A stretch of DNA of 64,000 nucleotides from Rugalucina vietnamica (taxonomy: Eukaryota; Mollusca; Bivalvia; Lucinida; Lucinidae). The DNA is taken from the NCBI GenBank assembly GCA_964017185.1, contig OZ024872.1, positions 57,219,817 to 57,283,816 on the forward strand, in the 5' to 3' direction. The notes under the pieces are model-generated. The model was not told where the DNA came from and searched no databases. It saw only the letters and a program-made list of their open reading frames with translations. The position numbers were made by a program, and so were the translations under genes. Positions 8,090-63,142 of this stretch are shown piece after piece (the stretch's first letter is position 1; every line of letters starts with the position of its first letter).

Positions 8090-8415
8090 GGAATAAGTTG
8101 TTGATACATCATTAATACTTTATAGGCATCTGTACATAATGCATCGGATCCTGCTCATATGTAGTGTTTGGAGATTCGCCCTACTCATAAGAATCTCATA
8201 GCTGGAGGAATAGTCATTGAAACAATCCTGAGAGCTCTATATTGCAGGCTTTTTTTTTTTTTTTTTTTTTTTAAATTCTCTGTATTTGCCTTGCCTCTGA
8301 AATATAAGGGGACAATAGTTAAAATGTGATTGAATATTTGAAGATTTAAAGTCTAGTTTCCTCTGTTAAAAATTACCGGTTGTCAACTAACTTTACGTTC
8401 ATTTAAAAATTTACT
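8090..8415. other. Intergenic or intronic; poly-T only
   Basis: A T-run at 8250-8272 is the only feature. Its right edge is the 3' insertion boundary of Naiad copy 1. Confidence 0.4.
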
Positions 8416-9036
8416 AAAAAGGTACAAGTAGGCAAAGATCAGGAAAAGGCGCAATCAGAAAAAGATTCCCACTCCAAAAACCGAGGTGGGAAAAAACCAA
8501 ACTAACAATCAGGTACTTATACCATGAAACATATCGTAAGCCGAATGAGCAGCTATTTTCCCAATAGGTGGCCACTCAGTTACCTGAACTTAACTAAAAA
8601 TATGAAAACATACATAAGGCGCCAACAGCACAAAAAATTTTATACACCAAGACATAAAACAAAAAGAACCACCACAGAAGTATCGACTTGGAACGATCAG
8701 TAACACAAAGTTACTGGCGGGCTTAAACCGGTTTTACATGGCCATAACCTCACCCTCAGCTTCTGCAGTGGTTCATAACATTTAGTTAGTTATTTGGTCC
8801 TCGTGGTGAATCTCTAACTAGTCAATGAATCATCAAGAACAAACAAATAAATCATGATAAACATCCTGATGAATCAAAAACCAGGACTCACAGACTGAGT
8901 AAGCTGCCCGACGATGGAGATCCCTGGGCGCCGAATAACCTACTAACTCCGGAGCAAAAGAAAAACACCAGTTGGACCCCGGTGGGCCAAGCAACAGACA
9001 AGAAGCTCCGGCCCCAACCAACTGAAATGAATAGCT
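8416..9036 (-). other. Naiad 3' UTR (copy 1), expected place for a SECIS element
   Basis: This segment is retained in every Naiad fragment of the window. It contains a clear 7-bp hairpin, CAGTAAC-TTTGT-GTTACTG on the - strand near 8700, and a second one with TTCCCAC/GTGGGAA arms near 8475. A weak ATGA..AA..GA arrangement occurs at 8747-8776, but its helix is poor. I could not assign a SECIS by eye. Confidence 0.5.
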
Positions 9037-10071
9037 TTATGTCGGGGCCATCATAGAGTCTGACGCCCGACCCACCGGCGTGCAATTAAAGAAGGCAGCA
9101 TAGTTATCAACCATGATTGGGTTAAAAACTAAGCATGCAGACTGTCGCATAACATTTAAGTTATAACCTATACGTCTGTAACGTGTTATGATTTTTCTGA
9201 ACTGAAAAGAAAAATCATTAATTCCTTTAAGTTTCTTAAATTTGTAAACCAAGTCACCATAAAATTCAGGTTCCGAAAGGCCCTCACTTAAAAGCGTCTT
9301 TAACCCAACATTATATTTGGAAATCAATTCATAGTGTCTACGATAAAATTTAGAAAATGTTTTTCGAAGTTTATGATACCGATAGCCCTGTTGGAGAAGT
9401 TTTGCCGTTAAACATTTATTTCGAGCGTTGAAGTCTGCAATATGATTGCAGACTCTAGCAAACCTAATAAGTTGCGAAATGTATACACCATAAGAAGCAC
9501 GACGAGGAACGTCACCATCCAAAAAAGGAAAATTTACTATATCAAAATCAAAGTCATCGCGCTTATCATAAATTTTAGAAGAAACAAATCCATTTGCAAC
9601 AGAAAGATGTAGATCTAAAAAGGGGGCTTCAGTATCTGTGATATTGGCTTTGTTCAACTGAAGTTCAGGTGGGTAAATTTGATTGACCATACCTTCAAAA
9701 TAAGGGTTGTCAATGTTCAAAAGGTCATCGAGGTACCTAGATGTGGAATTAAAAGCCTCGATAACATCAGCTTGATTATCATGGTTAAGAGAATCCATGA
9801 AATCTCTTTCGTAGCAGTATAAAAATAAATCAGCTACGAGAGGTGCGCAATTTGTACCCATCGGAATTCCAACAATTTGTCTGTATAACTTGGTCCCAAA
9901 TCTAATATAAATATTATCAAGGAGATAGGATAAGGCATCGCATACATTCTGACATGACCAAAGTGTATACCGACTTTGGTCAGAGGAAGTGAAAAAAGCC
10001 TTTCTGTCATTACATGCCAAATAAAGTGAACCATAGTTTTTTAATGCCCTTTTGAAGGTCCACTCTATCAA
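9037..10071 (-). CDS. C-terminal half of Naiad RT (copy 1)
   Basis: This 344-residue segment carries the RT core: GIPMGTNCAPLVADLF, then YLDD, then APFLDLHL and the thumb region, ending at TAA (9037-9039). It matches copy 2 residue for residue. The related + strand copy at 20301 has one extra T near the end and reads on past this stop, so the exact family C-terminus is uncertain. Confidence 0.85.
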   Translation of the reverse strand: MIEWTFKRALKNYGSLYLACNDRKAFFTSSDQSRYTLWSCQNVCDALSYLLDNIYIRFGTKLYRQIVGIPMGTNCAPLVADLFLYCYERDFMDSLNHDNQADVIEAFNSTSRYLDDLLNIDNPYFEGMVNQIYPPELQLNKANITDTEAPFLDLHLSVANGFVSSKIYDKRDDFDFDIVNFPFLDGDVPRRASYGVYISQLIRFARVCNHIADFNARNKCLTAKLLQQGYRYHKLRKTFSKFYRRHYELISKYNVGLKTLLSEGLSEPEFYGDLVYKFKKLKGINDFSFQFRKIITRYRRIGYNLNVMRQSACLVFNPIMVDNYAAFFNCTPVGRASDSMMAPT

Positions 10072-12268
10072 ATCCAGAAGTTTCTTTTATTAGATTATGT
10101 GGTAATGTTGTATACAGAGTAGAAAAATCATATGTGGACAAGCTTGTCGCACGGAACCCTCTACACTTCAATTTACTGAGCACCTCACCAGAATTTTTAA
10201 TTGACCAAAACCAATTTTTATTTGAAGTTTCATACACTGTCTCACAGTATCTTATAACATGAGATTTGATAGCAGTAAGACAGGAAGTTAATAATTTAGA
10301 AAGTTCAGTGGTAGTACAAGAGCTAGAATTTGCAATAAATCTAGCTTTGTATGGTCTTTTGTGAAGCTTAGGTAACCAATACATCGTAGGAAGTTTGTCT
10401 TGGCCTTCATTGACACAAACAGAAAACTTAACAGGTAAATCGTTTAAGTGGGCATTAACTACAGACACCTCATCAGTATCTGTCTCCAGATAAGCCAAGG
10501 TACCATCAAGCTCCTGTTTTAAGGTGTTAATGTAGTGAAGCCTACAAACGACAACAACATTGTTTGCGGCTTTATCTGCCGGAACCAAGACATACTTTCT
10601 ATGAAATTCTTGGATACCCTGCTTCAAATGCCTAAATGACGATTTGGGTTTAGGAGGTAAAAGATTAGTATTTTGTGAATAAAACTTAATACGTTTATCC
10701 ACGATAGTGAAGATACTTCTTTTCCATTCTTTAAGAGCATTATCCTCAACACCCTCTCGTTTACACCATCGATTACCGAAATCATTTAATGCAGATGAAA
10801 TCTCCTCTCTACATTTGTCGAAATTAATGTAGGAAGGGAATCTATATTTCGGACCTTTAGAAACAATTTTGCGAATTCTAGAATCCGAAATTATTTTTAA
10901 ATTTCCAGTAACAATATGTCCAGCGGGTTGATAAACATACTTTGAATCTTTACAATCTCAAGACTTAGGAGTATTAGCATGGATATCAAGATCAGAAACA
11001 AGTTTATTGAAATTAAAAATTGTATTTCTGATTGGTTTGTTATATTTGTAACAAATAATAGGAGGTTCTGAATTTTGGAAGTAGGTAGGTATAGACTGTA
11101 TCACTGATTTATCCTGGAATATGCTTGGTAAATCAATAAAGTCAATTCCTTTATTGATGAAAGGAATTTTAATAAAACTTCTAAAGTGATTAGATTCGGA
11201 ATCGATAAATGGACGAAGAGCATGCTGAGTATAACATCTTGTTAACAGTGCAGCGTCATACATTTGATGATTTCTATCGTAAAATCTATTAGCCTCTGTA
11301 TCCAAGGAACGTAATGCAGCAATAGGTAGAGAACTAAGATACGACAGCATTGGATGTCGACCGTGAATCATTAGTTTAACAGCTAAATCATTAAGAGAAA
11401 TGTTCAATTTCAATGCAGCGCACCGTTTACGTTTGTCATTGCCCTTTTTCCGTATACCATGAGATCTAGATTTACGTTTACGAGAGTCCGAAAGTGTAAG
11501 TACATCAAAATCGGGCATTTTGGAAATATTGCCTTCATGGTAAATGTTGTCGTTAAATCCCAGTGGAAAGGGTGTTTGCAGTAATTTTATCCATTTAAGT
11601 TCAGTTTCAAATCGTTTAATGTTTTTGAATCTAACTGAAGAATTTTCATCATATGTGATTTTCTCCACTGGTTGAACTTTAACATCATTGGGAGAATGAC
11701 CAGTGCGCTTAAAATGCTGGTACAGAAAGGTATCATTATTTTTGGGCTTTCTGATTCTACGATAGTGCTCACCAAATCGTTTTTGCAAAGTTCGACAAGT
11801 TTGTCCAACATATTGCATCCTACAATTGTTTGTATTTCAAGTAAGAACATATACAAGATCCATTGATTTTCAGTCTAAATCAGAAACATTAACCACTGAA
11901 AATGTCCTACCATTCACAGATGAAGTGATAGTAGTCTTAGAGCATAAATGATTGCAACAGTTGCACTTCTTGGCATTGCACTTAGAAATACTAGGGTACA
12001 TTCCAGGTCTCTTGAACGGATTAATATATTTACGTAAAATTGGTGATTTGAGTGGAGATAACCTAATCTGAAGATTATTGCGAAACATATTAGAATTAGA
12101 AGCTCCGTGTAGATTAACAGTAGATGCCGAAAATAAATTAAGAGGTGTCACCCTTACAGTAGGTAATAAATTTTGAAAATTGTTAGTTGAATGAGGAATC
12201 CGTACAGTAGACGCGGCATGCAACCTAAGGGGAGTTAATGTAATTCCTAATCTTTTTGTGATAGTCAT
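9037..12268 (-). CDS. Naiad PLE polyprotein: Cys-rich N-term, GIY-YIG endonuclease, CxC linker, RT (with TGA codons, one frameshift)
   Basis: If TGA is read as Sec and the 2-bp deletion is set aside, the ORF is about 1077 residues from ATG at 12268 to TAA at 9037-9039. Segments: 12268-11870 carries a CNAKKCNCC cluster; 11869-11819 carries the GIY half (VYVL) with two TGA codons; 11818-10961 starts MQYVGQT (the YIG half), then RFGEH and a QHFKRTGH histidine pair; 10957-10703 is the linker, with GHIVTGNL and KGPKYRFP; from 10702 comes the RT, with LVPADKAAN, WLPKLHKRP, YDFSTLYTTLPH, GIPMGTNCAP and the catalytic YLDD. All segments down to about 10082 share one frame with no TAA or TAG. Known of the family: RT for target-primed retrotransposition and endonuclease nicking. 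Sec incorporation is inferred. Confidence 0.85.
10010..10957 (-). CDS. Naiad linker and N-terminal half of RT, frameshifted at its end
   Basis: Directly after the TGA at 10958 the frame reads DCKDSKYVYQPAGHIVTGNL, giving [Sec]-D-C where the family has CxC. KGPKYRFP and RT fingers/palm motifs follow. The frame runs to YDFSTLYTTLPHNLIKE and is then lost because copy 1 lacks two T residues that copy 2 has near 14307. The C-terminal RT half continues in another frame at 10071-9037. Confidence 0.8.
   Translation of the reverse strand, partial: DCKDSKYVYQPAGHIVTGNLKIISDSRIRKIVSKGPKYRFPSYINFDKCREEISSALNDFGNRWCKREGVEDNALKEWKRSIFTIVDKRIKFYSQNTNLLPPKPKSSFRHLKQGIQEFHRKYVLVPADKAANNVVVVCRLHYINTLKQELDGTLAYLETDTDEVSVVNAHLNDLPVKFSVCVNEGQDKLPTMYWLPKLHKRPYKARFIANSSSCTTTELSKLLTSCLTAIKSHVIRYCETVYETSNKNWFWSIKNSGEVLSKLKCRGFRATSLSTYDFSTLYTTLPHNLIKETSGFDRVDLQKGIKKLWFTLFGM
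10958..11856 (-). CDS. GIY-YIG endonuclease segment of the Naiad protein
   Basis: Between the first and last TGA this segment encodes a GIY-YIG nuclease. VYVL lies just before the second TGA (11837-11839), then come NTNNC, QYVGQT, the catalytic-type Arg in TLQKRFGEH, and a QHFKRTGH pair that completes the CCHH motif of PLE endonucleases. A roughly 200-residue extension rich in basic residues (RKRKSRSHG, KRKRCAALK) follows and ends with NTPKS before the third TGA. The second TGA takes the first Cys position of CCHH. Confidence 0.8.
11870..12268 (-). CDS. N-terminal Cys-rich segment of the Naiad protein, ending at the first TGA (Sec candidate)
   Basis: This 132-residue segment begins MTITKRLG and has low-complexity Leu/Ser/Asn stretches, then KCNAKKCNCCNHLC. 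That is the C-x4-C-x2-C cluster that also precedes GIY-YIG domains in the two canonical PLE fragments here (CQRPNCGLC at 39231-39794, CNRKRCSHC at 31128-31325). The stop is TGA and reading continues in frame into the endonuclease. A 16-codon uORF (12315-12265) ends on the start codon in an ATGA overlap. The next upstream in-frame stop is also a TGA (12329-12331), so the true start could lie further 5'. Confidence 0.75.
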   Translation of the reverse strand: MTITKRLGITLTPLRLHAASTVRIPHSTNNFQNLLPTVRVTPLNLFSASTVNLHGASNSNMFRNNLQIRLSPLKSPILRKYINPFKRPGMYPSISKCNAKKCNCCNHLCSKTTITSSVNGRTFSVVNVSDLD

Positions 12269-12640
12269 AGTTGGGAGTATTGTGTTGATACTGCCAAAAG
12301 GAGCGCGACACTCATACCGGTTATAGAATCAATAATGCACTTAATCGTAATGCAAAATCTTTCGAATGAAAGAAAAAGGTATAACCGAAACCCACACCTC
12401 AGGTCCATGTCTAATACAAGTCCATGGATAGAAACGTAAGAATCGCTTATACAACGAGATACGAGTGACGGTCAACTAATGACCTTCAATACGGTATCGA
12501 AGAGTTGTGGTAGTTAGAGATAGGAAAATACAAACTGATTGCAAGCAATCCCTGAGGATTGGAAAAATAAGAGCATTAAATGGATGTACGGGGAGACTTT
12601 TTAGGGCCGCCACACGGCACAACCACAAGAACTCTGATAT
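12269..12640 (-). other. 5' leader of Naiad copy 1
   Basis: No long ORF. It holds a 16-codon uORF (ATG at 12315) whose TGA overlaps the main ATG at 12268 as ATGA. A stretch similar to 12585-12625 occurs alone at about 25365-25402, suggesting another scrap of this leader. Confidence 0.5.
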
Positions 12641-15093
12641 AAAAAGGTACAAGTAGGCAAAGATCAGGAAAAGGCGCAATCAGAAAAAGATTCCCACTCC
12701 AAAAACCGAGGTGGGAAAAAACCAAACTAACAATCAGGTACTTATACCATGAAACATATCGTAAGCCGAATGAGCAGCTATTTTCCCAATAGGTGGCCAC
12801 TCAGTTACCTGAACTTAACTAAAAATATGAAAACATACATAAGGCGCCAACAGCACAAAAAATTTTATACACCAAGACATAAAACAAAAAGAACCACCAC
12901 AGAAGTATCGACTTGGAACGATCAGTAACACAAAGTTACTGGCGGGCTTAAACCGGTTTTACATGGCCATAACCTCACCCTCAGCTTCTGCAGTGGTTCA
13001 TAACATTTAGTTAGTTATTTGGTCCTCGTGGTGAATCTCTAACTAGTCAATGAATCATCAAGAACAAACAAATAAATCATGATAAACATCCTGATGAATC
13101 AAAAACCAGGACTCACAGACTGAGTAAGCTGCCCGACGATGGAGATCCCTGGGCGCCGAATAACCTACTAACTCCGGAGCAAAAGAAAAACACCAGTTGG
13201 ACCCCGGTGGGCCAAGCAACAGACAAGAAGCTCCGGCCCCAACCAACTGAAATGAATAGCTTTATGTCGGGGCCATCATAGAGTCTGACGCCCGACCCAC
13301 CGGCGTGCAATTAAAGAAGGCAGCATAGTTATCAACCATGATTGGGTTAAAAACTAAGCATGCAGACTGTCGCATAACATTTAAGTTATAACCTATACGT
13401 CTGTAACGTGTTATGATTTTTCTGAACTGAAAAGAAAAATCATTAATTCCTTTAAGTTTCTTAAATTTGTAAACCAAGTCACCATAAAATTCAGGTTCCG
13501 AAAGGCCCTCACTTAAAAGCGTCTTTAACCCAACATTATATTTGGAAATCAATTCATAGTGTCTACGATAAAATTTAGAAAATGTTTTTCGAAGTTTATG
13601 ATACCGATAGCCCTGTTGGAGAAGTTTTGCCGTTAAACATTTATTTCGAGCGTTGAAGTCTGCAATATGATTGCAGACTCTAGCAAACCTAATAAGTTGC
13701 GAAATGTATACACCATAAGAAGCACGACGAGGAACGTCACCATCCAAAAAAGGAAAATTTACTATATCAAAATCAAAGTCATCGCGCTTATCATAAATTT
13801 TAGAAGAAACAAATCCATTTGCAACAGAAAGATGTAGATCTAAAAAGGGGGCTTCAGTATCTGTGATATTGGCTTTGTTCAACTGAAGTTCAGGTGGGTA
13901 AATTTGATTGACCATACCTTCAAAATAAGGGTTGTCAATGTTCAAAAGGTCATCGAGGTACCTAGATGTGGAATTAAAAGCCTCGATAACATCAGCTTGA
14001 TTATCATGGTTAAGAGAATCCATGAAATCTCTTTCGTAGCAGTATAAAAATAAATCAGCTACGAGAGGTGCGCAATTTGTACCCATCGGAATTCCAACAA
14101 TTTGTCTGTATAACTTGGTCCCAAATCTAATATAAATATTATCAAGGAGATAGGATAAGGCATCGCATACATTCTGACATGACCAAAGTGTATACCGACT
14201 TTGGTCAGAGGAAGTGAAAAAAGCCTTTCTGTCATTACATGCCAAATAAAGTGAACCATAGTTTTTTAATGCCCTTTTGAAGGTCCACTCTATCAAATCC
14301 AGAAGTTTTTCTTTTATTAGATTATGTGGTAATGTTGTATACAGAGTAGAAAAATCATATGTGGACAAGCTTGTCGCACGGAACCCTCTACACTTCAATT
14401 TACTGAGCACCTCACCAGAATTTTTAATTGACCAAAACCAATTTTTATTTGAAGTTTCATACACTGTCTCACAGTATCTTATAACATGAGATTTGATAGC
14501 AGTAAGACAGGAAGTTAATAATTTAGAAAGTTCAGTGGTAGTACAAGAGCTAGAATTTGCAATAAATCTAGCTTTGTATGGTCTTTTGTGAAGCTTAGGT
14601 AACCAATACATCGTAGGAAGTTTGTCTTGGCCTTCATTGACACAAACAGAAAACTTAACAGGTAAATCGTTTAAGTGGGCATTAACTACAGACACCTCAT
14701 CAGTATCTGTCTCCAGATAAGCCAAGGTACCATCAAGCTCCTGTTTTAAGGTGTTAATGTAGTGAAGCCTACAAACGACAACAACATTGTTTGCGGCTTT
14801 ATCTGCCGGAACCAAGACATACTTTCTATGAAATTCTTGGATACCCTGCTTCAAATGCCTAAATGACGATTTGGGTTTAGGAGGTAAAAGATTAGTATTT
14901 TGTGAATAAAACTTAATACGTTTATCCACGATAGTGAAGATACTTCTTTTCCATTCTTTAAGAGCATTATCCTCAACACCCTCTCGTTTACACCATCGAT
15001 TACCGAAATCATTTAATGCAGATGAAATCTCCTCTCTACATTTGTCGAAATTAATGTAGGAAGGGAATCTATATTTCGGACCTTTAGAAACAA
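12641..15093 (-). mobile_element. Naiad PLE copy 2, 5'-truncated, head-to-tail with copy 1
   Basis: By eye this is nearly identical to 8416-10866, offset by 4225-4227 bp; the difference I found is two extra T residues near 14307. It is cut off at 15093/15094, 5' of the RT, where sequence switches to a LINE RT. A 5'-truncated copy immediately upstream of a full copy is the usual PLE arrangement and forms a pseudo-LTR. The near identity implies very recent insertion. Confidence 0.9.
13262..14929 (-). CDS. Intact Naiad reverse transcriptase ORF (copy 2)
   Basis: This 555-residue open frame covers the whole RT without interruption. Motifs in order: VPADKAANNVVVV, LPTMYWLPKLHKRP, KARFIANSS, STYDFSTLYTTLPH, GIPMGTNCAPLVADLF, the catalytic SRYLDDLLN and TEAPFLDLHL. 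The frame stays open upstream to the truncation at 15093 and contains no TGA, so candidate Sec codons are confined to the endonuclease and linker. The GTG at 14929 is only the first start-like codon, not a biological start. Confidence 0.85.
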   Translation of the reverse strand: MDKRIKFYSQNTNLLPPKPKSSFRHLKQGIQEFHRKYVLVPADKAANNVVVVCRLHYINTLKQELDGTLAYLETDTDEVSVVNAHLNDLPVKFSVCVNEGQDKLPTMYWLPKLHKRPYKARFIANSSSCTTTELSKLLTSCLTAIKSHVIRYCETVYETSNKNWFWSIKNSGEVLSKLKCRGFRATSLSTYDFSTLYTTLPHNLIKEKLLDLIEWTFKRALKNYGSLYLACNDRKAFFTSSDQSRYTLWSCQNVCDALSYLLDNIYIRFGTKLYRQIVGIPMGTNCAPLVADLFLYCYERDFMDSLNHDNQADVIEAFNSTSRYLDDLLNIDNPYFEGMVNQIYPPELQLNKANITDTEAPFLDLHLSVANGFVSSKIYDKRDDFDFDIVNFPFLDGDVPRRASYGVYISQLIRFARVCNHIADFNARNKCLTAKLLQQGYRYHKLRKTFSKFYRRHYELISKYNVGLKTLLSEGLSEPEFYGDLVYKFKKLKGINDFSFQFRKIITRYRRIGYNLNVMRQSACLVFNPIMVDNYAAFFNCTPVGRASDSMMAPT

Positions 15094-17795: not shown

Positions 17796-18100
17796 TGGTG
17801 GGAAGAAACCAAACTAACAATCAGCTACCTATACCATAAAAACATGTCGTAAGCCGAATGAGCAGCTATTTTCCCAATAGGTGGCCAATCAGTTACCTTA
17901 ACTTAACTAAAATATAAAAACATACATAAGGCGCCAACAGCACAAAAATATTAAACACCAAGACATAAAACAAAAAGAACCACCACAGAAGTATCGACTT
18001 AGAAAGATCATAAACAAAAAATTACTAGCGGGCTTAAATCGATTTTACACGGCCGTAACCTCACCCGCAGCTTCTGCAGTGGTTCATAACATTTAGTTAG
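17796..18100 (-). mobile_element. Naiad 3' fragment
   Basis: Diverged match to the 3' UTR of copy 1 (about 8490-8792), lacking the extreme 3' end. It lies inside the CGTRA-rich repeat. Confidence 0.75.
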
Positions 18101-19253: not shown

Positions 19254-20300
19254 TGTAAGACCTTTAAATGTTGTCTGTCTCCAGTTACCCTGTAGTCTCT
19301 AACCTGTTACGAAATATTTACCGTCGTTACGAACCTGTTATGATGAAAGCTGAAAGATATAGCTTCATTCACGTTTTAGAAACGGGTTGGTTTAGAATGA
19401 CACGTTTGATAATCGGGGACGTTCTTTGACTCTATTGTATGGAAAAATCATGTCAAGTCATACAAACAACAAAAACTTGAAACTAAAAGCAACCATTAGG
19501 ACACAAATGAGGGCTTTGTAGAAGGAAAAAATACATTTTTTGTAAACAAAACTTGTATCAGCTGAGAGCAAACTGTCTAGATTATCTTACAACCGCATTG
19601 AATAAGTTTAAATAAGTATTCTGAACAAATCCTAAAAGACAAAATATGATACTTGCAGTTTTTGTTTAGTTATTATTCACTAAAAGAGAACACATCTAAA
19701 AATAAAACTGATTCTTAAGCATATTTCGTCCTGAACCTGTCGCGCACTGTCGTCCAGAACCACACTATGTAGTAACGAACATCCCTAAGCGTGAAATACA
19801 TAACTTCAGGTTTGTTCAGTTTCAACGTATACAACAAGCAGTGGCCATTTGAAATACCGGACTGGCTGTGTAGATGATAAGGTTAGTAAATAGAATATAA
19901 TGGTTTGACCCTTTGGAAGCATAAAAACATTCAAAGTGAGATTGTATGGACTATATTGCGCAATTTCGGGTAATGAACCCTCATCAGTAGCCCTTTTTAA
20001 GGCTGTTTTTATCATTCTCTCGCAACTTGATCCGATTTTCACTATGGCATTCCGAAGCAGTCATATCATTTTGTTCAACGAAAACGTATTCGTCTTAACA
20101 AATGTCCTATTGTTATTACTGGTCATGTATCGACTAGCATGTTGAAAGTTGAAAAAATACAGTTCTCTTTGGCTCCATTTTGCCAAACCTAGAGGGTCAC
20201 TGAAGAGACTTTGCAGTCGAAACCGCGGTATGGCCCATCCATTTTCTCATAAATATGCTCACTGCTCTTAAAGGATCTCAGTTTATTTTTATTGGCTTTA

Positions 20301-21655
20301 ATAAAGCTGATGTTATCGAGGCTTTTAATTCCACTTCTAGTTACCTCGATGACATTTGGACATTGACAACCCTTATTTTGAAGGTATGGTCAATCAAATT
20401 TATCCACCTGAACTACAGTTGAACAAAGCCAATACCTCGGATACCGAAGCCCCCTTTCCTAGATCTACATCTTTCTGTTGCAAATGGATTTGTTTCTTCT
20501 AAAATTTATGATAAGCGCGATGACTTTGATTTTGATATAGTAAATTTTCCGTTTTTGGATAATGACATTCCTCGTCGTACTTCTTATGGTGTATACATTT
20601 CGCAACTTATTAGGTTTGCTAGAGTCTGCAATCATGTTACAGACTTCAACGCTCGAAATAAATGTTTATCTGCCAAACTTCTCCAACAGGGCTATCGGTA
20701 TCATAAACTTCGAAAAACCTTTTCTAAATTTTATCGTAGACACTATGAATTGATTTCCAAATAAAATGTTGGGTTAAAGACGCTTTTAAATGAGGGCCTT
20801 TCGGAACCAGAATTTTATGGTGACTTGGTTTACAAATTCAAGAAACTTATAGGAAGTAATGATTTTTCATTTCAGTTTAGAAAAATTATAACACGTTACA
20901 GACTTATAGGTTATAACTTGAATGTTATGCGACAGTCTGCATGCTTAATTTTGAACCCAATCATGGTTGATAACTACACTGCCTTCTTTAATTGCACGCC
21001 GGTGGGTCGGGCGTCAGACTCTTATGATGGCCCCGACTTAAAGCTATTCATTTTAGTTGGTTGGGGCCTGAGCTTCTTGTCTGTTGCTTGGCCCACCGGG
21101 GTCAAACTGATGTTTTTCTTTTGCTCCGGAGTTAGTAAGTTATTCGGCGCCCAGGTATCTCCATCGTCGGGCAGCTTACTGAATCTGTGAGTCCTGGTTT
21201 TTGATTCATCAGGATGTTTATCATGATTTATTTGTTTGTTCTTGATGATCCATTGACTAGTTAGAGATTCAGCACGAGGACCGAAGAACTAACTAAATGT
21301 TATGAATCACTGCAGAAGCTGAGGGTGAGGTTATGACCATGTAAAATCGATTTAAGCCCGCTAGTAACGTTTTGTTACTGATCGTTCCAAGTCGATACTT
21401 CTTTGGTGTTTTTTAATGTCTTGGTGTTTAATAGTTTTGTGCTAGTGCGCCTTATGTATGTTTTCATATTTTTGGTTAAGTTAAGGTAACTGATTGGCCA
21501 CCTATTGGGAAAATAGATGCTCATTCGGCTTACGTAATGTTTTCATGGCATAGGTACCCGATTGTTAGTTTGTTTTTCTCCACCTCGGGTTTTTGGAGTG
21601 GGAATCTTTCTCTGATTGCGCCTTTTCCTGATCTTTGCCTACCTGTACGTTTTTA
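20301..21655 (+). mobile_element. Naiad PLE copy 3, 5'-truncated, degraded
   Basis: Plus-strand copy beginning inside the RT (ADVIEAFNSTSSYLDD) and running to the common 3' end. RT fragments are at 20555-20764 and 20825-21190, separated by an in-frame TAA near 20761, with a base loss near 20355. It ends 82 bp before an exon of the LU gene, so it is an intronic insertion. Confidence 0.85.
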
Positions 21656-21834: not shown

Positions 21835-24374
21835 GTAAGAGAGTGGTCATCTCGTTTGTATCACTGGATTATGCTAATATGCCCATCTCATTTGTATCAC
21901 TGGATTATGCTAATATGGCCATCTCGTTTGTATAACTGGATTATGCTAATATGGCCATCTCGTTTGTATCACTGGATTATGCTAATATGGCAATCTCGTT
22001 TGTATAACTGGATTATGCTAATATGGCCATCTCGTTTGTATCACTGGATTATGCTATTTGTATCACTGGATTATACTAATAATTATGATAAACACGTCAT
22101 CTAGTAAAATGACATCAGCAGCTGCTCGTCATTATAAAGTATGACAATGTGGTTACTGGTAAGTCTAGTTCTTATAATTATGCTATTACATTTGAACTAC
22201 TTTTGAAATTAGTTGCTTGAATATTGATTTATTCCATCCCTCTACCGGATGTTTTATGCAGCCGCATGTGAAAACCAAAAATCTGCATATGCGAAAACAA
22301 AGGCGCAGACCAGCTTCGCAGAAACCGAGAAGCTGATCAGCGCCTTTGTTTTCGCTCTTCTTCTTAAATCCAAAATTTCAAGCTTCCAGCCATCTTCTGT
22401 GACTGTACTACCCGGCTTGTGTCGGACCTGGTCGGAACTTAAATTGTTGGTTTTCTCACGCACAGGCTCAAATTATAAAGTGAGCGTACGGGAAGGAAAT
22501 TATGTGTCTGCTCACTCATTACGAAAACATGCCCATGCAATTTACAGAGATTTTTAAAGTTGTAAAAAATGAAAATTTTCAGTAGAACAGTTTTGCTTTT
22601 TTTCTTATTTTTGCTAAAAACATAGATGGTGGGTACACGTTAGAACCGCCTCGCCGAGGCGGTTCTAACGAGTACCCACAATCTATATTTTGGAGCAAAA
22701 ATAAGAAAAATAGGTATATCCCTGCATACCCCAGTTTTGCTATATAAAATGGGGTTTTGAGGGGTACACATTTCACGGACATGTGTTGATTGTTCGACTT
22801 TTGATAGGGTTTCCTGATAGACTAGCACGCGGTCCACTGTGTTTTGACTGTCAGCATGTGGAATCAGCCGAGGATTGTGGTACTATCACGCTCTGCCATC
22901 GTGATCAGGTATGACGCCACACCAGGGCAGATACAAACAACGTAGCTCATTTTTTTCCTGACTCGCGGCGAGACCAGTACTATAGGAAGTTTGTTTTTTG
23001 TGGGTTTGTTGTCCCGGGAGCACCCGAAGGCTCAACCGGGAGGTTGATTTTTGTTGTTGTTTTTGGAGAAGCCCGGGATCGAACCTGCGACCCCGGGTTT
23101 ACAAGGCGAATGACTTAACCATTGCACCACAGAGGCTTGCTCATCCTATTACATATTAGCTTGTGTCTTGAAATGGTGATACTGAATCAAATCTTATAGC
23201 TTATATATGTTTCAGTGTTGTTGTGTATTGTATGTGTACAATGTATCTATGTTGCCATAAATAAATGCATCTTGTGGTCATAAAACCATATGTGTTCTTT
23301 CAAATTAAAATTGAGTCGCGTCGCGAGAAACCGGATTATTGCCTATGCGAAAACAAAGGCGCAGATCAGCTGTGCAGTAACTGCACAGCCGATCAGCGCC
23401 TTTGTTTTCGCTTAGGCGCAGATCAGCTATGCAGTAACTGCGCCTTTGTTTTCGCTACATGGATAGTACACTTCCTCTACTTCCTACATTCGAAATTTCA
23501 AGTTTCTAGCCATCTTCTGTAGGTGCACAGGCCGGTTGTGTCAAACCTGGTCTTAAACCCCGAAGACCGGTTTTCTTGCGAAGCGGCTCAAGTTTGTCAA
23601 TTTGTTTTGTTAGGTTTGTAGGATCGAGGAACTAGACTGGGGAGATACATTCACGCATTTAAACATGGGTTGTGGTCAGAAGTATCAGGTGAGCTAACGT
23701 TTACATTACACCACCGAAATACTAGAACAATGCTCATTGGGCTGTGCATGTGCCGCGACGTGAGAAAAACCGGTCTTTGGGGTTTCCCACCAGGTCCGAC
23801 ACGAACCGGCCTGTACAATCACTGAAAATAGCTCGGAGTTTGAAATTTCGGATTTAAGAAGATGGATTGTACTATTTGTGTAACGAAAACAGTCACTGCA
23901 CAGCTGATCTGCGTCTTTGTTTTTGCATTTGCAGATCGTTGATTTTCTCATGCGTCGGCTCATATCTCTAGTCATGAGCGGCACAGTTTTGCTCTGCTTC
24001 CAATTATGTCATTTTATTCACGTATCAGTTTCGAAATTGCAGTGTTTTGAAATGCATGATGACAGTGCATCCTTCCCCTCTTTATAATAAAGTGCCTTCT
24101 ATTTATTCAGAATTATTTGATAATTTTATAAGAAACTATGAAAGACGGTGCTTGGACAGTTGGCCTAAAACTTAGTGATCATGCGATGACTATGGCCAAA
24201 TAGTTGTGTACTCCATCGTTAAAATTTTGATGTTGGAATACGATTAATACCGATAACTTGATATTTCAGTGTCCCCTCACAAGGAGATCACTGCCAGTGT
24301 GTCAGAACTGTTGTGCTGACGACTTCTGTAACACCAACTGTACCAGAATGACAGGAGTTCCCATCATTGGCTAG
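21738..24374 (+). CDS. Ly6/uPAR (LU) domain protein, last four exons
   Basis: Exons 21738-21834, 22808-22908, 23614-23688 and 24270-24374 have GT/AG borders and matching phases (97, 101, 75, 105 nt). The first finishes one LU domain (CLECCKGDFCN). The other three encode a complete second LU domain: CFDCQ, EDCGTITLC, QVC, MGC, QC, then QNCCADDFCN and C, the Cys order of the three-finger fold. The protein ends at TAG with no obvious GPI tail (TRMTGVPIIG), so it is probably secreted. The 5' exons with the signal peptide and the start of LU1 were not found; Naiad copy 3 lies directly upstream. The partner and role are unknown. Confidence 0.8.
21848..22080. repeat. 36-bp minisatellite, about seven units
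   Basis: Unit ATCTCGTTTGTATCACTGG plus ATTATGCTAATATGGCC, alternating ATCACTGG and ATAACTGG versions. It begins 14 bp after an LU-gene donor site. Confidence 0.8.
22258..22470. mobile_element. AACAAAGGCGC palindromic MITE, copy 1
   Basis: Internal palindrome GCGAAAACAAAGGCGCAGA..GCGCCTTTGTTTTCGC; right end GTTGGTTTTCTCACGC. Intron of the LU gene. Confidence 0.7.
22590..22800. mobile_element. Hairpin repeat (GCCTCGCCGAGGC family), copy 2
   Basis: Arms of about 40 bp around a core GAACCGCCTCG-C-CGAGGCGGTTC. Its right end (ACATTTCACGGACATG) is only a few bases from an LU-gene exon. Confidence 0.7.
22808..22908 (+). CDS. LU gene exon: start of second LU domain
   Basis: Acceptor TTTGATAG, donor GTATGA. 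Encodes GFPDRLARGPLCFDCQHVE and EDCGTITLCHRDQ. The phase fits both neighbours. Confidence 0.8.
23050..23135 (-). repeat. tRNA-like SINE head
   Basis: Minus strand GTGGTGCAATGGTTAAG and GGTTCGATCCCGGG resemble A and B boxes. The anticodon stem does not pair, so it is a SINE head or pseudo-tRNA. Confidence 0.55.
23312..23592. mobile_element. AACAAAGGCGC palindromic MITE, copy 2
   Basis: The internal palindrome is partly duplicated (two ATCAGC.GTGCAGTAACTGC blocks). It ends 22 bp before an LU-gene exon. Confidence 0.7.
23614..23688 (+). CDS. LU gene exon: middle of second LU domain
   Basis: Acceptor TTTTGTTAG, donor GTGAGC. Exactly 25 codons with VC at the start and MGCGQKYQ at the end. Confidence 0.8.
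23735..23965. mobile_element. AACAAAGGCGC palindromic MITE, copy 3 (inverted)
   Basis: Reverse orientation, one half of the central palindrome decayed. Intron of the LU gene. Confidence 0.65.
24270..24374 (+). CDS. LU gene terminal exon
   Basis: Acceptor ATATTTCAG. Encodes CPLTRRSLPVCQNCCADDFC then NTNC and a short tail to TAG (24372-24374). Confidence 0.85.
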   Translation, partial: CPLTRRSLPVCQNCCADDFCNTNCTRMTGVPIIG

Positions 24375-24399
24375 CATCTGTTACATGACTGTCTTGTTC

Positions 24400-24405
24400 A
24401 ATAAA
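24400..24405 (+). promoter_or_regulatory. PolyA signal of the LU gene
   Basis: AATAAA 26 nt after the stop codon; no competing signal lies nearer. Confidence 0.7.
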
Positions 24406-24441
24406 CTCATTGAATATGATTGTGACTTTTAATTATGAAAT

Positions 24442-24682
24442 TTGAGCCAGTGTGTGAGAAAACCAACAATTTGGGTTTCCGACCAGGTCCACACAAACCG
24501 GCCTGTACAGTCACAGAAGAAAGCTAGAAGCTTGAAACTTTGCATAAATGTAGAAGATGAATTGTACTATCCGTGTAGCGAAAACAAAGGCGCTGATCAG
24601 CTGTGCAGTTACTGCACAGCTGATCTGCGTCTTTGTTTTCGCATATGCAAATTGTTTGTTTTCCCATGCAGCAGCACATATG
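24442..24682. mobile_element. AACAAAGGCGC palindromic MITE, copy 4
   Basis: TIRs GTGTGAGAAAACCAACAAT and a complement-like right end; core CTGATCAGCTGTGCAG inverted. Just downstream of the LU-gene polyA signal. Confidence 0.7.
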
Positions 24683-24864
24683 ATTGTAACTTGTAATTAT
24701 GGAATTTAAATAAAGGTGATGGTTCCAATACACTGTGTCTTTGTTTTTGAAAAGATTATTATCTCGTTGTCCGTAGAAAGTTCGTGATATCCAGACATCA
24801 GAACATAATAGTCTGATTACGAACTCACAAAATATGCAAACTGAAAAGCATATGCAGTATAAGA

Positions 24865-25100
24865 GCCTCGACGCGAGAAAACAGGTCTTCGGGGTTTCCG
24901 ACCAGGTCCGACACAAACCGGCCTGTACAAGCTCAGAAAAGAGCTAGAAGCTTGAAATTTCGGATTTAAGTAGAAGAGGAATTGTACTATCCGAGTAGCG
25001 GAAACAAAGGCGCTGATCAGCTTCGCAGTTACTGCGAAGCTGATCTGCGTCTTTGTTTTCGCCCATGCAAATTGTTGGTTTTCTCACGCACAGGCTCATT
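24865..25100. mobile_element. AACAAAGGCGC palindromic MITE, copy 5
   Basis: Same organisation as copy 4, with a perfect core AGCTTCGCAGTTACTGCGAAGCT-type hairpin and end CTCACGCACAGGCTC. Confidence 0.7.
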
Positions 25101-26327
25101 AATATTTGACAATTTTCATATCGTGCTTCGTATTAAGCCGAGAGATACAGATATGGCAACATGCCGAAGCCAAAGAGAATTACTGAAATTTGCCACTTTC
25201 AACAGGGTAGTCGATACAAAGGCTAATATTATCTAAATTGGACTAAATTTATTAAACATTGATAAGGAAATGAATCTTAACCGATAATAAATTTCAGATT
25301 TCTCAGAATATCCTCACTGAACTCAAAGGACCGAAACGAAAATATAATCTGCATTATGGATAATGTACGGGGATACTTTTAGGGCCGCCAAACAGCACAA
25401 CAGCAGCTGCAGAAAGGGATGCAGCAATATATTGCGATACGCAAATATTGCAATACGGTCCTTGACAATACGCTGTATTGTATCGGAGGCATCTGATTTG
25501 CCGTATTGCAATTTACAGACTTCCAATGAAAATTCCCATAACAAAAATGACAAATAATCAAAAAATTTAAACAAACACCAATTAATTTTCTGCAACAGGC
25601 AAGGCAGAGTGTGCAGTCTTCAAAGTTTAGCACTGGGACTCATTTACTTATGCTTTCTTCTAAGTTTCAATAGATTTTATGAATTTAAGCTGCACTTTTT
25701 AAAATTTATTTCTTTAATAAGCTAACTTCAGTACTTGAATACATACACTGTATTGTACTGTATTGCAGTAGCTGTATTGCAATACATATTGTATTGGGTG
25801 TGGGCAAGCAGCCCTAGCTGCAGTAATAGGCAATAGAAATAAAACTGAGATCCTTTAAGAGCAGCGAAGACACTAATGAGAAAGGGGTGATGAGCCATAC
25901 CGCGGTTTCGACTATTAAAGTGCATAAAGAATATGCATTTTTCAAAATTTCAATTTTCTGAAACACCACAAGAAAGAATATGAACGTGTCATCCTTTGGC
26001 AATATAAAAGTAGTAAATAGTGCTGCAAAACACTTTAAAATTGAAAATCAAACAAAATTACTGAATTATTTTTAGAGTTTTGCGCTCAGCTATGTATGCT
26101 TTACAAATTAGTTTTGGTTTGGCGCATTTTAAATGAAAAATAGTCAATTTAGATTTTTACTGGAAAATACTTACTTCCCTTGCTGACATTTTGACAATGA
26201 AAAAAGCCATATTCAAATTATTTCCTGGCAAAATATGCTTTTTGTTAACTTGTCAAGTCGTGGCACTTTTTAAGACTTGGAATGAAAAATATTGAGATAT
26301 TCATATTTTTATTTAATTCAGTTTTAC

Positions 26328-26892: not shown

Positions 26893-27795
26893 AAAAAGGT
26901 ACAAGTAGGCAACGATCAGGAAAAGGTGCAATCAGAAAGAGAATCCCTCTCCAAAAACCGAGATGGGGAAAAACTAAATTTACAATCGGGCACTTATACC
27001 ATGAAAACATATCGTAAGCCGAATGAGCTGCGATTTTCCCAATAGGTGGCCACTCAGTTACCTAAACTGACTAAAAATATGGAAACATACACAAGGCGTA
27101 AAGAGCACAAAAGGTTTTAAAACCAAGACATAAAACAAAAAGAACCGCCACAGAGGTATCGCCTTGGAAAGATCAGTAATATAAAATTACTGGTGGGCTT
27201 AAATCGATTTTACGGGTACCTAAATTCACCCTCAGCTTCTGTAGTGGTTGACAATATTTAGTTAGTTGTTCGATCCTCGTGGTGAATCTCTATCTAGTCA
27301 ATGAATCATCAAGGATAGACAAATTAATCATGATAACCGCCACCACCATAATGAATCAAAAACGAGGAATCATAGATTGAGAAGGCTGCCCGACGATGGA
27401 GATCACTTGGCGCCAAATAACTTACCAACTCCGGAGCAAAAGAAAAACACCAGTTGAACCCCAGTGGGTCAAGCAACAGACAAGTAGCTCCGGCCAAAAC
27501 CAACTAAAATAACATTAAGTTCGGACCATCGTCTGACGCCCGATGCACCGGCTGCAATTAAAGAAGGCAGCATAGTTATCAACCAGGATTGTGTTAAAAA
27601 CTAAAAGCGCAGACTGTCGCATAACATTTAAGTTATATCCAATACGTCTGTAGCGTGTAATGATTTTTCTGAACTAAAAAGAAAAATCATTCCTTCCTAT
27701 AAGTTTCTTAAATTTATAAACTAAGCCGCCATAACATTCTGGTTCCGAAAGGCCATCGCGTAAAAGGGCCTTTAGCCAAACATTAGAAATCAATG
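26893..27795 (-). mobile_element. Naiad 3' fragment with RT remnant
   Basis: Starts at the shared 3' terminus and runs through the 3' UTR into degraded RT C-terminal sequence, stopping near 27795. Substitutions and small gaps throughout mark it as old. Confidence 0.8.
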
Positions 27796-28533
27796 ATTAT
27801 ATATTTTAATAAACTTTATTTTGTATATAAAACACCCACTTCTGTTTCATTATTCTTTAGTACCTATAGTACCTTCTTCGACTTTTGCATTTACCAAATA
27901 CTGTATCAATATTTTCATCTACTTACTGTTTGAATTAGGTTAGCTAACCTGAATGATGACATTTTCTAAGAACGACCTGCTTTCATTTTTGTATTTTATA
28001 TTTGCATACCGGTTTTTACCCAAATTTAATGACAATTCCCAAATATCAGGAATGGCATTTTTTGCCTCGAAGCTACTTACTAAAAGAAAATTTGGAACAA
28101 GAAATGTCCTGCCGAAGTCTATGGACCATTACTTCTAAAATTTGAGTTTTGACAAAAACAGCGATTCTTTTGAAACTTAACCCACATAAGACCATTGCAA
28201 GCAAGCTTTTATACCGCACTGCATAGATCTGCTAGATTTTATTTCAGACTGACTTTCACAGCACTATAAATTTCAAGTTGAATTTTTGTGTACCTTTGGA
28301 CTTTTTTCAGAAAAAAATGCCATAATTTTAGGATATTTAGAATAATACAAAAATATGCACAATGGGCTAAGGTAATATATTTGCTGTTTCAAATTTCTTT
28401 TAGTCACAAACTTCAAGGCATTACTCTGTAAGAAATCCAAGTGAGACCGACACTCTTGCTTTTTGGGCATTGTCATATAATTTGAATCAAACTCTGAGAG
28501 TTTTACACTTTGCCGTAGGGATAACTTTGTTTC

Positions 28534-29042
28534 ATTCTTTAATTGCACGCCGGTAGGTTGGGCGTCAGACTGTATGATGACCCCGACTGGCATTTTTAGC
28601 TGATTGAGACCGTCGCTTCTTGTCTGTTGCTTGGTCCGGTGGGGTTCCACTGATGTGTTTCTTTGCCTATGTTTAGCTTTCTGTCAGGCACCTTATTGTA
28701 TCCGTGAGTAGTTCTCGGTTTGATTCATCATGGCGTTTTGTGATCTATTTGTTTGCCCGTGATGGTTAATTGACTAGTTAGAGATTCACTACGAGGACCA
28801 AAAAACTAACTTAATGTTGTGAAAGGGTGAGGTTAGGGCCCTGTAAAACCGGTGGACTGTCAATTTCTTGTCTTTGACAACTGAAATTTGGGAACTGTGG
28901 TGGTTCTTTTGGGAAATACTCGACTTACTGTACGATATGTTGTTTTAGAAAAGTACCTGATTAACAATTTAGTTGTTTCTCATCTCGGTTTTTGGAGTGG
29001 GAATTTTCTGATTGCGCCATTTCCTGATCATCGCCTAATGTT
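28534..29042 (+). mobile_element. Naiad 3' fragment
   Basis: Plus-oriented, from the last RT codons (AATTGCACGCCGG) through a shortened 3' UTR to the common end. It lies about 220 bp upstream of the start codon of gene B. Confidence 0.75.
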
Positions 29043-29263
29043 ATTTTTTTATTTAGTTTTAAGTAGTGTGTTATTTTACATCCTGTTTTGAACACAGGCT
29101 ACCAGGTAAAATCAACAAAACATGCTATGTTTCTTTAATAATAATCAGGTGAAAATAGATTGCTTCTACCCCAATACACCACAAAGCGCTGACATACATA
29201 CTTAAGTGGAACGTGAGGTCCTTTTTTCGTCGTTGAGTATAATGAATTGCTTCGGAATTGTAG

Positions 29264-58979
<29,716 letters not shown>

Positions 58980-63081: not shown

Positions 63082-63142
63082 CAAGGTAAAAGTAGGCAAT
63101 GATCAGGAAATGGCGCAATCAGAAAGAAATTCCCACTCCATA
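63082..63142 (-). mobile_element. Short Naiad 3' terminus
   Basis: About 60 bp resembling the terminal block (GTAGGCAATGATCAGGAAAT), immediately followed by a short ATT-rich tract. Confidence 0.6.

Follow-up and report, generated by a model that had tools for sequence, protein, structure and literature searches.

The element studied here is a Penelope-like retrotransposon whose reading frame is interrupted by TGA codons, and the question it raises is whether these codons are the scars of decay, genuine terminators, codons read as tryptophan, or codons for selenocysteine (Sec). It lies in a stretch of 64,000 nucleotides of the bivalve Rugalucina vietnamica, hereafter the window. An earlier note on this DNA had placed two TGAs in one frame (SDLD-TGA-KSMDLVYVLT-TGA-NTNNCRMQYVGQT) and had taken Sec as their simplest reading. 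Both codons were found in frame at the positions given there, and the Sec reading was strengthened by the restriction of stops to TGA on cysteine columns, by matches to the Rfam model SECIS_1, and by the occurrence of Cys, Trp or protein ends at the same columns in relatives. A third TGA, the SECIS matches, the tandem structure and a 2-base length difference near position 10080 were absent from that note. The locus very probably represents a permuted Naiad-type Penelope-like element encoding a multi-selenocysteine selenoprotein, with one 3' SECIS and with the TAA end of its frame inside that SECIS. In such an element, the mRNA would carry one SECIS at its 3' end to recruit the selenocysteine machinery of the host, the three internal UGAs would be read as Sec to yield an endonuclease-reverse transcriptase with three Sec residues, and translation would terminate at the TAA located within the SECIS. 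The features on which the analysis is based are collected in Table 1.

Table 1. Position of the element, its codons of interest and its SECIS structures in the window
Feature	Position	Strand	Basis or remark
5'-truncated upstream tandem copy	12640..15093	-	99.9% identity to fuller copy, 2454 aligned bases
Fuller element copy	8415..12639 (ends approximate)	-	Tandem junction, shared 3' ends, 4225-bp repeat spacing
Stop-to-stop N-terminal stretch ending at first TGA	11870..12328	-	ORF list
TGA site 1, residue 153, conserved Cys column	11870..11872	-	Homologue alignment
GIY-YIG endonuclease domain, residues 155-263 of P0001	11540..11866	-	Predicted fold
TGA site 2, residue 164, conserved Cys column	11837..11839	-	End of strand 158-164 of the GIY-YIG fold
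TGA site 3, residue 457, first Cys of C-x-C pair before reverse transcriptase	10958..10960	-	Homologue alignment
Cys codon TGT at residue 595, a fourth column apparently recoded in relatives	10544..10546	-	Trp in 14/52 cells
2-base length difference in A run, relative to tandem neighbour	10080..10086	-	Reverse transcriptase frame of fuller copy shifted
TAA stop of reverse transcriptase frame, inside SECIS	9037..9039	-	Two of the three apical A's come from TAA
SECIS of fuller copy (AUGA 9054-9051, apical AAA 9038-9036, GGAG 9009-9006)	8995..9062	-	Rfam SECIS_1
Identical SECIS of upstream tandem copy	13220..13287	-	Rfam SECIS_1, 34.8 bits, just below cut-off 35
Other 3'-terminal copy of element	20299..21655	+	93% identical
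SECIS of the 20.3-21.7 kb copy	21015..21083	+	Rfam SECIS_1, 40.8 bits, over cut-off 35, E 3.8e-5
3'-end fragments of same retroelement, part 1	17797-18100; 26893-27794; 28520-29060; 48767-49158		
3'-end fragments of same retroelement, part 2	50746-50996; 54045-54452; 56815-56891; 63083-63140		

Tandem layout and domain order of the element

On the minus strand, the retrotransposon is present as two head-to-tail pieces, a 5'-truncated one (15093-12640) followed by a fuller one (about 12639-8415), in which a 5' leader, a GIY-YIG endonuclease, a linker, a reverse transcriptase (RT) and the 3' end succeed one another. Head-to-tail partial tandems with a truncated upstream copy are typical of Penelope-like elements, and this arrangement is found here. 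The sole difference between the two copies, over 2454 aligned bases, is a length change of 2 bases within an A run, so that the tandem looks young. In the upstream copy, the RT frame is open through to its stop, within an ORF (15172-13262) of which the first 79 bases precede the copy. The fuller copy is out of frame past position 10083 and hence encodes no intact RT. The length change may be a mutation or an assembly error. Judged from its sequence, the fuller copy is probably not active itself and, owing to the frameshift in its RT, it serves as evidence for the family rather than as a working copy. Nucleotide comparison revealed eight more stretches of 3'-end fragments in the 64 kb, apart from the copy at 20.3-21.7 kb, indicating that the family is abundant in the window.

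Hammerhead ribozymes are found in Penelope-like elements, though not universally. Two Rfam scans that together spanned the whole window gave no hammerhead match up to E 10, and a loose hammerhead pattern produced five hits, exclusively on the antisense strand. Weak type-P1 twister matches on the minus strand (8665-8729, 12890-12954 and 49020-49083; 20.2-20.8 bits, below the Rfam cut-off of 67.2) fall in the 3' region of three copies of the element.

The frame at 12328-10083 on the minus strand was translated with TGA read as U, and residue numbers refer throughout to this read-through protein, P0001. Its probable start is the ATG at 12268-12266 (M21); many of the homologues listed are 132 amino acids long, which is the length from M21 to residue 152. 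The predicted model of residues 155-263 adopts a GIY-YIG fold as in I-TevI, and when solved structures were searched with a sequence profile, the single weak match was also to I-TevI (E 0.17). No Pfam match was obtained for the RT in the window's own ORF. The later part of P0001 aligns with a distant relative, P0043 (residues 114-747, 35% identity), in which Pfam recognizes GIY-YIG (107-195) and RVT_1 (625-826). The I-TevI match and the P0043 alignment thus put a GIY-YIG endonuclease N-terminal to an RT in one protein. With its class assigned from this domain order, the element is best read as a permuted Naiad-type Penelope-like element in which GIY-YIG precedes the RT.

TGA codons at conserved cysteine columns

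The 748 codons of the frame include three TGAs, and neither TAA nor TAG; the remaining two forward frames over the same stretch contain 27 and 104 stops. All three TGAs (3/3) occupy columns at which homologues carry Cys. With new stops modelled as one-step, transition-weighted changes, about 30% would be expected to be TGA, and the probability that three of three are TGA by chance is ca. 0.03. The probability that three random positions all fall on the 10 conserved Cys columns is ca. 2e-6, a guide value since the ten columns include the TGA sites themselves.

Within the window, a second Penelope-like endonuclease, encoded at 39231-39878, provides a direct comparison. The alignment of cysteines with this protein that had been proposed from the letters alone was recovered by BLASTP with Cys written at the TGAs (E 2e-09): residues 153 and 164 fall on the Cys of MTC and of VMKC, separated by ten residues in both proteins. 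This homologous endonuclease has Cys at both sites, whereas the element studied here has UGA; likewise, no SECIS accompanies the former (no match up to E 10 in 30001-64000), whereas the latter has one. Repeat arrays with an 8-base step, at 38197-38405 and 40414-40664, flank the ORF of this second endonuclease and comprise 26 register copies in all.

In the predicted model, site 2, which the earlier note labels as part of a 'CCHH zinc motif', is within the GIY-YIG fold, and site 1 is just ahead of the fold. This location bears on the possibility that the TGAs are true terminators and that several short proteins arise through re-initiation. The second TGA is indeed followed at a short distance by a Met (M171), at which many predicted relatives begin. 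However, re-initiation would split the endonuclease domain, because the TGAs lie in or just before its fold, and starts such as M171 are what an ORF caller is expected to return after any stop. Separate short proteins are accordingly regarded as extremely improbable.

The Sec reading was examined further in relatives of the protein. For column counts, a set of 84 homologues was used and only aligned cells were counted. Columns 153, 164, 457 and 595 together contained Cys or Trp in 172 of 175 cells, namely 21 Cys and 5 Trp (of 26) at 153, 24 Cys and 3 Trp (of 27) at 164, 55 Cys, 13 Trp, 1 Arg and 1 Ile (of 70) at 457, and 37 Cys, 14 Trp and 1 Leu (of 52) at 595. At the other conserved Cys columns (117, 122, 125, 169, 459 and 671) no Trp was present in 228 cells, and the less conserved column 506 showed one. 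The simplest reading of Trp at the recoded columns is that TGA was translated with code 4. In line with this, the six Trp of P0002 consist of three at the TGA sites and three common to the window protein, and P0035 (41% identical) has Trp at all four columns. Among 31 proteins whose C-terminus falls within the alignment, 24 stop immediately ahead of column 153, 457 or 595 (1 at 152, 3 at 456 and 20 at 594). Given the clustering of C-termini at 594, relatives seem to have a fourth recoded site at residue 595, which is a TGT codon in the window. Proteins of the group that stops at 594 carry Cys at 457, so different lineages appear to recode different sets of sites. When homologues were sorted by identity, column 153 showed 3 Trp and 1 protein end at 50% identity or more, and 21 Cys and 2 Trp below 50%.

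Closer relatives were covered by a search with the N-terminal stretch, in which 120 of 433 homologues were listed, spanning 63-98% identity. Of those listed, 92 end exactly at residue 152 and another 4 do so with a mismatch in the last residues, so that 96/120 end at column 153; 8 have Trp at both 153 and 164, 2 have Leu at 153, and the remaining 14 stop or depart from the alignment at other places. Cys at 153 was present in none of the 120 listed, in a search whose length window restricts what could appear. The Trp residues and the ends at the TGA columns, the 96 ends included, are observations at the protein level. DNA relatives were sought in the collections viral_contigs and genome_contigs, where no confirmed relative was found. 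A Pfam GIY-YIG search of the clam's own genome (1.09 Gb, 47 contigs; 150 of 451 candidates scored) listed no match inside the window and is therefore uninformative on this element family. Two of the 150 scored matches have internal stops. At eight GIY-YIG loci of the same genome (L001-L008), tblastn detected no match to P0001 at E 1e-5, and these loci may belong to other Penelope-like clades. An RT relative with 78% identity, P0159, is filed under a Candidatus Thiodiazotropha MAG; perhaps it is host sequence assembled with a symbiont, which would hint that the relative comes from a clam.

These data were weighed against decay, that is, ordinary nonsense mutations in a dead copy of the retrotransposon. 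The frameshift in the copy and the abundance of degraded element fragments in the window are consistent with decay. By contrast, the stops are TGA only and all on Cys columns, an end at the same column 153 is shared by the 96/120 listed homologues across 63-98% identity, and 2 bases in 2454 separate this copy from its tandem neighbour, suggesting a young tandem. The expectation of the earlier note that decay would leave TAA and TAG at scattered positions is at odds with the three TGAs, no TAA and no TAG observed, all on Cys columns. On the type of stop, its position and its common occurrence in relatives, decay was dismissed as highly improbable.

Reading of UGA by a near-cognate tRNA, or as Trp, with no involvement of selenium, would agree with the Trp printed at the sites in public predictions. 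However, besides the code-4 explanation for these residues, the columns concerned are occupied by Cys rather than Trp in distant relatives, and a SECIS is present. The six Trp codons of the frame are all TGG, necessarily so because TGA was read as U in the translation. On TGG usage and on Cys in distant relatives, this reading was also set aside, with a probability as low as that of decay. For the preferred reading, selenocysteine, two of the adverse observations named in the earlier note were checked, the lack of any SECIS and unrelated residues at the sites. A SECIS was found, which favours Sec, and unrelated residues proved to be rare though not absent, amounting to the Arg and Ile at 457 (1 each of 70), the Leu at 595 (1 of 52) and the Leu at 153 in 2 of the 120 listed N-terminal homologues.

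SECIS matches and the overlap with the stop codon

The core of a SECIS consists of AUGA ... AAA ... GA, and this core is present in the SECIS of the element. SECIS_1 matches occur at three places, all in copies of the element and at the 3' end, and there were no further matches up to E 10 in 1-30000 or 30001-64000. In the fuller copy, the match at 8995-9062 is downstream of all three UGAs and reaches 34.8 bits, 0.2 under the cut-off of 35, with E 0.0016 in a 30-kb scan and 0.00041 in a 7.5-kb scan; these values apply equally to the match at 13220-13287. Folding compared to shuffled sequences gave z -4.27 for the SECIS at 21015-21083 and a less striking z -2.46 for that at 8995-9062; the 3' core reads TGAG in the former and GGAG in the latter. 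In two degraded copies (27.5 and 28.5 kb), no SECIS match was obtained and folding was no better than in shuffles. The codon data, the homologue data and these matches together suggest that TGA codons lie behind the Trp residues of relatives and that the SECIS would be bound and used, with Sec inserted at the UGAs.

The RT frame ends in ...SDSMMAPT-TAA, with the AUGA core inside the ATGATG of the two Met codons, and the SECIS and the stop codon overlap. This layout is unusual and directly testable. A search with the RT end listed 120 of 485 homologues, of which 92 contain SDSMMxxT and 88 have it at the C-terminus, counts that are at the protein level and are favoured by the inclusion of that ending in the query. 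Among 14 distant homologues with inspected tails, several of which look incomplete, none has an ending of this type. In the copy at 20.3-21.7 kb, one extra base before ATGATG causes the frame to run past the stop, and the SECIS is retained. As a conjecture, and an unlikely one, a SECIS that spans the stop and is unfolded by each terminating ribosome could limit Sec decoding and thereby the endonuclease, with Sec at the endonuclease Cys sites binding metal or working as a redox switch; the regulatory and the chemical role alike are conjectural.

Known selenoprotein systems and other features of the window

Craig et al. 2021 reportedly described multi-Sec Naiad elements of the Penelope-like type. 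Those elements reportedly resemble the one studied here in having GIY-YIG followed by RT, UGAs at Cys positions, several Sec and a SECIS near the 3' end. That Sec exists in such elements is thus already thought to be so, and the view of the present element as a further case is well supported. Among the titles listed in a literature search of limited coverage, none concerned Sec in Penelope-like or Naiad elements, which says little.

In fowlpox virus, the glutathione peroxidase gene specifies one Sec and has its SECIS in the coding region. There the SECIS overlaps coding sequence, as it does here; in the present element, however, the overlap includes the stop codon itself. The SECIS of selenoprotein P sits in the 3' UTR. 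Multiple Sec residues occur in selenoprotein P, according to PMC8230778, and the element would be similar in having several Sec in one protein; selenoprotein P is a host selenoprotein, whereas the product considered here is the enzyme of a mobile element. Naiad is mentioned twice in PMC10941475.

If the Sec reading is true, Sec in a mobile element links the spread of that element to the selenium supply and decoding machinery of its host. The four fixed sites, where Cys and UGA seem to replace one another, would offer a handle on why Sec is favoured in an enzyme that cuts and copies DNA. In the public predictions seen, such proteins are broken at the sites or have Trp printed there.

Two other features of the window were recorded. 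A repeat family with long self-complementary stretches (22284-25101 and 34303-34412) gave weak, below cut-off matches to Rfam miRNA precursors and is perhaps a mobile element. On the minus strand, the segment 16213-16284 is tRNA-like (Rfam tRNA, 44.9 bits) and is not called as a tRNA by ARAGORN; it is possibly a tRNA-derived repeat.
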